NCBI RefSeq assembly: GCF_019931195.1
Contig: NZ_JAIOUO010000003.1
Coordinates: 682,001-746,000, forward strand
DNA from: Marinobacter sp. F4216
GTDB taxonomy: Bacteria; Pseudomonadota; Gammaproteobacteria; Pseudomonadales; Oleiphilaceae
Direction of reading: 5' to 3'
Length of the DNA stretch: 64,000 nt
Shown: piece by piece, positions 63,206-64,000 of the stretch
Position numbering within the stretch: the stretch's first letter is position 1
Layout of the letters: each line of letters opens with the position of its first letter
Program-made: the position numbers and the translations under genes
Notes under the pieces: model-generated
The model's input: the letters and a program-made list of their open reading frames with translations, nothing else
Database searches by the model: none
What the model was told of the DNA's origin: nothing

Positions 63206-63281
63206 GCCCGGATAGCTCAGTTGGTAGAGCAGGGGATTGAAAATCCCCGTGTCGGTGGTTCGATTCCGCCTCCGGGCACCA
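63206..63281 (+). tRNA. tRNA-Phe (GAA anticodon)
   Basis: 76 bases with CCA encoded. Acceptor pairs GCCCGGA / TCCGGGC, D-arm region TAGCTCAGTTGGTAGAGCA, anticodon stem GGGGA / TCCCC with loop TTGAAAA giving GAA, and T-arm GGTTCGATTCC. The tRNA-Phe identity follows from the anticodon. Confidence 0.97.
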
Positions 63282-63471: not shown

Positions 63472-64000
63472 GTTAATCAGGCGCCCGCGTGGAGCGCGAC
63501 CATGGCTGATGCCGCTTCAATGGTTCCTTTCAGGTTTCTATCCACGCGCCCCGCGAGGCACGACAAATAACCAGTACGGCAGCACCGCCTCGAGGTCGGT
63601 CTGATTTCTATCCATGCGCCCGTGCGGGGAGCGACTGTCCTTCAACCGCATCAGCGATTTGCGCAGGTCGTTTCTATCCGCGCGCCCTCATGGGGCGCGA
63701 CAGCCTCCAAAGCGACGTAGTACGTAGCCCAAGCGAAGTTTCTATCCACGCGCCCACACAGAGCGCGACCTGTTGATCAGATGCACGACTTCGCGGGTGT
63801 GATTGTTTCAATCCACGCGCCCGCATGGGGCACGACCCATGAAGCTTAGCCCGATTGAGGGCGAAGACATGTTTCTACCCACGGCCCCGCGCTACGGGCG
63901 CGACCTTCGATCTTCCTCGGTTGCCCAATCCGGCCGATAGTTTCTATCCACGCGCCCTAACGGAGGCACGACCTTGTAGCGATATTCCGCGTATCGATCC
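63472..64000 (-). CRISPR. Type I-C-like CRISPR array with diverged repeats, continuing beyond the right edge
   Basis: Eight repeat units (starts at about 63472, 63534, 63604, 63670, 63738, 63805, 63871 and 63940), 31-34 bases long except the eroded first one, separated by spacers of 33, 39, 34, 36, 35, 34 and 35 bases; the eighth spacer runs off the edge. The repeats share a GTTTCTATCCACGCGCCC-type beginning and a GCGAC or ACGAC end, matching the type I-C family when read on the minus strand (ending GTGGATTGAAAC), so transcription from right to left is inferred. The unit at 63805 is closest to the classic type I-C repeat. The central hairpin loop differs in every unit, and no two repeats are identical. 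No cas genes lie in the window; leader and cas would be expected to the right. The terminal unit near 63472 is the most degraded, as expected at the leader-distal end. Confidence 0.82.

Follow-up and report, generated by a model that had tools for sequence, protein, structure and literature searches.

The right end of the window (the whole 64,000-nt stretch of Marinobacter sp. F4216 DNA analysed here) lies within a CRISPR array of type I-C; the trailer half is inside the window, and about 500 bp more lie past its edge. Features of the extended locus, L006, are given in its own coordinates, to which 63299 is added to obtain window coordinates. Read in crRNA orientation (minus strand), the complete array has 15 full repeats, none of them identical to another, and a degenerate terminal repeat. 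Seven full repeats (R15 to R9) and their spacers can be read from the sequence within the window at 63534..63972, the repeats lying at 63534-63564, 63604-63635, 63670-63701, 63738-63769, 63805-63836, 63871-63904 and 63940-63972; the other eight (R8-R1, L006:710-1203, minus strand) extend to ~64502 in extended coordinates. The terminal repeat is truncated (GTCGCGCTCCACGCGGGCGCC by direct reading of the minus strand, ~63480-63500) and stands at the trailer end, beside a tRNA-Phe gene; this repeat and the first of the array are the degenerate ones. Units on the minus strand follow the layout GTCGCGCCC-loop-GGGCGCGTGGATAGAAAC, which is the type I-C architecture, with full repeats of 31-34 nt and 14 internal spacers of 30-39 nt, plus one further stretch of 33 nt. 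The array displays the 32-nt hairpin and the 3' end resembling GGATTGAAAC of I-C repeats, together with regular spacers, and its 3' ends, mostly GGATAGAAAC, match those in the live arrays of relatives from the same order. The initial annotation, whose view covered about half of the array, had listed eight units with I-C flanks; these are found where it placed them, as the seven full repeats and the degenerate terminal one. Its quoted variants (e.g. CATGGGG at 63687 and CACAGAG at 63755) were correct on re-reading, as were its seven spacer ranges (63501-63533, 63565-63603, 63636-63669, 63702-63737, 63770-63804, 63837-63870 and 63905-63939), and its statement that every repeat is different extends to the whole array (15/15 distinct, mean pairwise edit distance 6.8).

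The cas genes follow past the window, all on the minus strand. The end of cas7c (L006:1251-2120) is ~47 bp past the first repeat, and next come cas8c (L006:2120-3901), cas5c (L006:3898-4605), cas3 (L006:4615-6834) and a WYL-domain gene (L006:7052-8050). This is the full effector set of type I-C. All four genes are open and have PADLOC and NCBIfam matches, cas7c, cas8c and cas5c to I-C models and cas3 to the PADLOC Cas3c models, without reaching the cut-off of the Cas3 core helicase model of TIGR. Nearly all of Cas5c can be aligned to solved I-C Cas5 proteins, and most of Cas3 to solved Cas3. In a midpoint-rooted tree of concatenated Cas3, Cas5, Cas8 and Cas7 from 20 loci, the root-to-tip distance is smallest for the present locus, on a branch that also spans time before the loss of cas1, and the effector sequences give no sign of relaxed constraint or acceleration. 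Since the adaptation module, cas4-cas1-cas2, was looked for and not found at the locus, what is present should be filed as an interference module of type I-C together with its array and not as a complete system. Nor is there a leader of the usual length, and a simple scan of the stretch where array and cas operon adjoin gave no sigma-70-like promoter. A genome-wide search found no Cas1 gene in the assembly (99.93% complete), while control genomes gave the expected results. According to the initial annotation, this would have been an ordinary array had the repeats further to the right been identical and the cas set there intact; the rightward extension brought four effector genes without cas4, cas1, cas2 or a normal leader, and divergence in all 15 repeats. 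The option it held to be simplest, an old array in which spacer acquisition has ceased, gains support from the absence of cas4, cas1 and cas2 from the locus and of Cas1 from the genome.

The tRNA-Phe (GAA) gene beside the array (63206..63281, plus strand, predicted by ARAGORN) is the target of an integration event. Its last 47 bp (63235-63281), the left attachment repeat, recur as an exact copy of the tRNA 3' end at L006:12705-12751, past the window, which is the right attachment repeat. The ~12.8 kb between them include genes for a tyrosine integrase (L006:9363-10469) and an AlpA-like protein (L006:10911-11120), both on the plus strand, so that the integrase and the direct repeat typical of a tRNA-targeted integrative element are both present; L006 has no second tRNA gene. 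Because the 47-bp copies flank the CRISPR module, with the integrase and AlpA-like protein between them, the module is, judging from this arrangement, cargo of the element. Five other members of the genus have related integrases (71-80% identity), in four of them within loci with tRNA-Phe, and two of those four have type I restriction-modification components: the locus at L173:3718-9431 carries a full set, and that at L176:1692-3422 the specificity subunit, the component tested there. These two loci suggest that such small elements form a family whose defence cargo can be exchanged. No close homologue of the present locus was found in other sequenced members of the genus, and a search of viral contigs gave no closer one. 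The element also contains a 132-aa lipoprotein-like ORF (L006:8555-8953) without PADLOC, NCBIfam or Pfam match, and just to its right (L006:12865-19682) lie ORFs with a resemblance, judged by eye, to O-antigen ligase and Tad pilus genes (TadC, TadB, TadA, TadZ).

The extent of repeat divergence was placed in context by a survey of cas8c-bearing genomes, using an array finder built on I-C-like repeats. Both cas1 and a readable array were present in 91 loci, together providing 93 arrays and 3,737 repeats; the median of the mean pairwise distance between repeats was 0.0 in these arrays, and the highest value 0.76. With a value of 6.76, the present array lacks the near-identical repeats of type I-C. 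Only three loci have an array without local cas1, the remaining loci without cas1 having no recognisable array or being cut off by a contig edge, and all three are divergent, compared with 0/91 of those with cas1 (Fisher P = 7e-6). In Pseudomonas sp. GV085 (L062:11690-13405; mean distance 2.67), as in the present locus, cas1 has been deleted, the effectors are present and the repeats are diverging, but the stage is early: the deletion fused remnants of cas4 and cas2 that are still there, and 11/15 repeats are distinct. No Cas1 was found in that genome, and the phage matches of its spacers are weak. The third locus (L220:5704-6150) belongs to an unrelated proteobacterium (genome G914) and has six repeats, all different (mean distance 8.67), about 8 bp after cas7 in a cas5-cas8-cas7 cluster without adjacent cas3, cas4, cas1 or cas2; this genome has Cas1 elsewhere. 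Its handle, GCGGATTGAAAC, is constant and its stem sequences differ, yet 7/7 hairpins fold, which makes it a stronger case than the present array of divergence with structure kept. Placed side by side, the three loci run from an early to an advanced stage of repeat divergence.

Within the present repeats, change is concentrated in the loop, where the pairwise JC distance is 1.33 (near saturation) compared with 0.22 in the 5' stem strand, 0.10 in the 3' stem strand and 0.11 in the handle (P 1e-5). Divergence in the loops is thus 6-13 times that in stems and handle, and the loops show some length changes as well. The claim of the initial annotation that most hairpins still fold holds, with 93% of stem pairs kept, mostly by absence of change and otherwise by G-U wobbles; there are no compensatory double changes in the stems of this array. 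Stem changes of the C>T type, which keep G-U pairing, outnumber G>A changes, which break the pair, by 9 to 1 (P 0.02), and with a hand count from L062 (6 to 1) the P value becomes 0.002, although common descent of the repeats could exaggerate this bias. When the same changes in stem and handle are placed at random, almost as many pairs survive (P 0.105, not significant), and for this reason the claim of structural constraint rests on the loop contrast. The loop bases may serve as an internal clock for gauging constraint on spacers, stems and handle. As the effector genes are intact, the loss of cas1 could also be more recent than the loops imply.

The repeats are not ordered by age. Serial ageing along the array is rejected by the lack of relation between repeat distance and position (Mantel r 0.055, P 0.34), and mosaic assembly from the arrays of other species is unsupported, in that shuffling columns among repeats leaves their resemblance to natural repeats unchanged (P 0.52). 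The drift pattern appears in four observations: Cas1 is absent, all repeats differ, there is no order along the array, and column states are independent. Since distance is unrelated to position and column shuffling has no effect, the pattern is one of star-like drift from a single ancestor, for which GTCGCGCCCCACGCGGGCGCGTGGATAGAAAC, the live consensus of a same-order relative (L184), is a plausible candidate.

The native contiguous array stretch was searched, and targets were identified for 3/15 spacers (S3, S8 and S11, all on the minus strand) and none for the other 12. The targets lie in mobile DNA, with the 5' TTC PAM of type I-C adjoining for each of the three spacers and TTT in two of the compared targets. 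Spacer S8 (63973..64000, plus 8 bp past the window end) matches MK249129 at 32/36 positions (TTT) and MK249225 at 31/36 (TTC), and S3 (L006:1005-1040) matches MH572327 at 31/36 (TTC). Both are directed at one and the same site of the major capsid gene of Microviridae, namely the GYQERYAEYRYK codons right after a Phe codon, and this conserved codon is the source of the TTC or TTT motif. Spacer S11 (63770..63804) matches at 29/35 positions portal genes of a Cupriavidus and a Klebsiella plasmid and a gene of Stenotrophomonas phage ANB28, with TTC or TTT adjoining, and at 28/35 an IMG/VR contig that encodes the same peptide, NHTREVVHLIN. Spacers S3 and S8 differ at 8 positions, 6/8 of them third codon positions (P 0.02), which disfavours their origin by duplication; because the differences fall mainly there, independent captures from two viruses are favoured. 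An in-frame TAA in S8, which no capsid gene should carry, is a sign of drift in that spacer. The capsid peptide variants that S3 and S8 would encode are absent from IMG/VR, which also suggests spacer drift, and peptide-level IMG/VR scans with S12, S7 and S9 gave no match. Nevertheless, S3, S8 and S11 together differ from the nearest known phage at 15/107 positions (14%), all phage divergence included, against ~40% change in the loops, and the chance that 3/15 spacers would be so preserved at the loop rate is P ~2e-5. These three spacers are recognisable because they are conserved.

The best explanation, which we regard as probable, is a I-C system that is dead for adaptation and has retained interference. 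A I-C module carried on the tRNA-Phe integrative element would have lost cas4-cas1-cas2 and its leader, most simply through one deletion, by which the array came to adjoin cas7. Repeats would no longer be renewed, because there is no Cas1 to copy the leader-proximal repeat, and each would gather its own mutations, loops being free to change while the stem, 3' handle and recognisable spacers change little and the effectors evolve at the ordinary rate. The array is presumably transcribed with the cas operon, the diverged repeats would still be cut by Cas5c, and Cascade-Cas3 could then use the array against conserved phage sites, with the fixed spacers still giving some protection. The outcome would be a memory that is fixed and inherited but no longer adaptive, unable to learn but perhaps still in use.

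That both adaptation and interference have been lost, leaving array and cas genes simply to erode, seems unlikely. In favour of such a dead relic, no two repeats are alike, the first repeat and the terminal one have degenerated, S8 contains a stop codon when read in the frame of its target gene, and other sequenced members of the genus lack a close homologue; against it, the four effector genes are open and without acceleration, stem and handle are conserved relative to the loop, and the spacers are far less changed than the loops. E. coli arrays with decaying cas genes shrink to a few repeats (PMC2886076), whereas 15 spacers are kept here. The loop contrast would say nothing of age, or of constraint elsewhere, if loops were mutation hot spots through hairpin extrusion or template switching, and it is true that the excess change sits in the loop, with some changes of length, and that the inner repeats of cas1-bearing arrays have a 3-4 fold loop excess per site. 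That excess in live arrays is equally explicable by selection, however, and the roughly equal loop and stem rates in L062 (by hand count) do not fit a ten-fold hot spot, so that this explanation too has little to recommend it. As for a non-CRISPR repeat family imitating I-C, an option raised in the initial annotation to which variable repeats and the lack of cas1 might point, it is contradicted by the full and intact I-C effector operon adjoining the array, the canonical 3' handle, spacers of 30-39 nt and phage-matching spacers beside TTC, and is extremely improbable. The effector set, the tRNA-Phe element, the capsid and portal targets and the two other loci with the same pattern had all been out of sight of that annotation.

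A further explanation is that divergence was itself favoured: without Cas1 a lost spacer is irreplaceable, and arrays whose repeats differ, and so recombine less, would survive with their spacers. Exact runs shared by neighbouring repeats are short (5-18 bp at the longest, usually 10 or less), 15 spacers are still in the array, degenerate CreTA repeats have been shown to resist recombination and to surpass a normal array in stability (PMC9458426), and degenerate, polymorphic terminal repeats are known elsewhere, with a proposed role in limiting array collapse (PMC8047081). Plain drift with constraint explains the same pattern, however, only three Cas1-less arrays were found, and up to 20 bp are still common to some non-neighbouring repeats, so favoured divergence is possible but rather doubtful. 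It can act together with the loss of adaptation preferred above. More generally, and just as tentatively, repeated loss of Cas1 might turn I-C systems into a fixed, innate-like immunity, in which spacers against conserved sites are kept long by selection, repeats diverge to the limit set by the RNA hairpin and handle, and divergence guards the memory from recombinational loss.

Compared with known type I-C systems (cas3-cas5c-cas8c-cas7-cas4-cas1-cas2), the present locus agrees in its full effector set, gene order, repeat architecture, spacer length and TTC motif, and differs in lacking cas4, cas1, cas2 and a normal leader and in the fact that all its repeats are different. CRISPR effectors without Cas1 or Cas2 on mobile elements are already known from the minimal I-F systems of Tn7-like transposons, but in those cas3 is missing too and their presumed role is to guide transposition, whereas here cas3 is intact and the carrier has a tyrosine integrase (PMC6360697). 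The present repeats can also be likened to the ectopic repeats of CreTA, which degenerate once freed from adaptation, are still usable by Cascade and recombine less (PMC9458426); in CreTA one or two such repeats guard a toxin, whereas here a whole 15-spacer array contains phage-matching spacers. No description of an interference-complete I-C system with its whole array diverged after Cas1 loss was found in the open-access literature searched. The locus is a natural experiment that bears on the forces keeping CRISPR repeats identical and on the lifetime of an immune memory that is not updated, and its naturally diverse, still foldable I-C repeats are candidate parts for recombination-stable arrays.

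Beside a normal I-C locus, genome G223 has a second, divergent Cas3-Cas5-Cas8-Cas7-like cluster (L125:11798-17601), with no cas1 and no recognisable array. Genome G914 encodes a 630-aa P-loop protein (GTNGTGKTT; L229:16378-18270) downstream of its diverged array, a possible candidate for a further defence gene.
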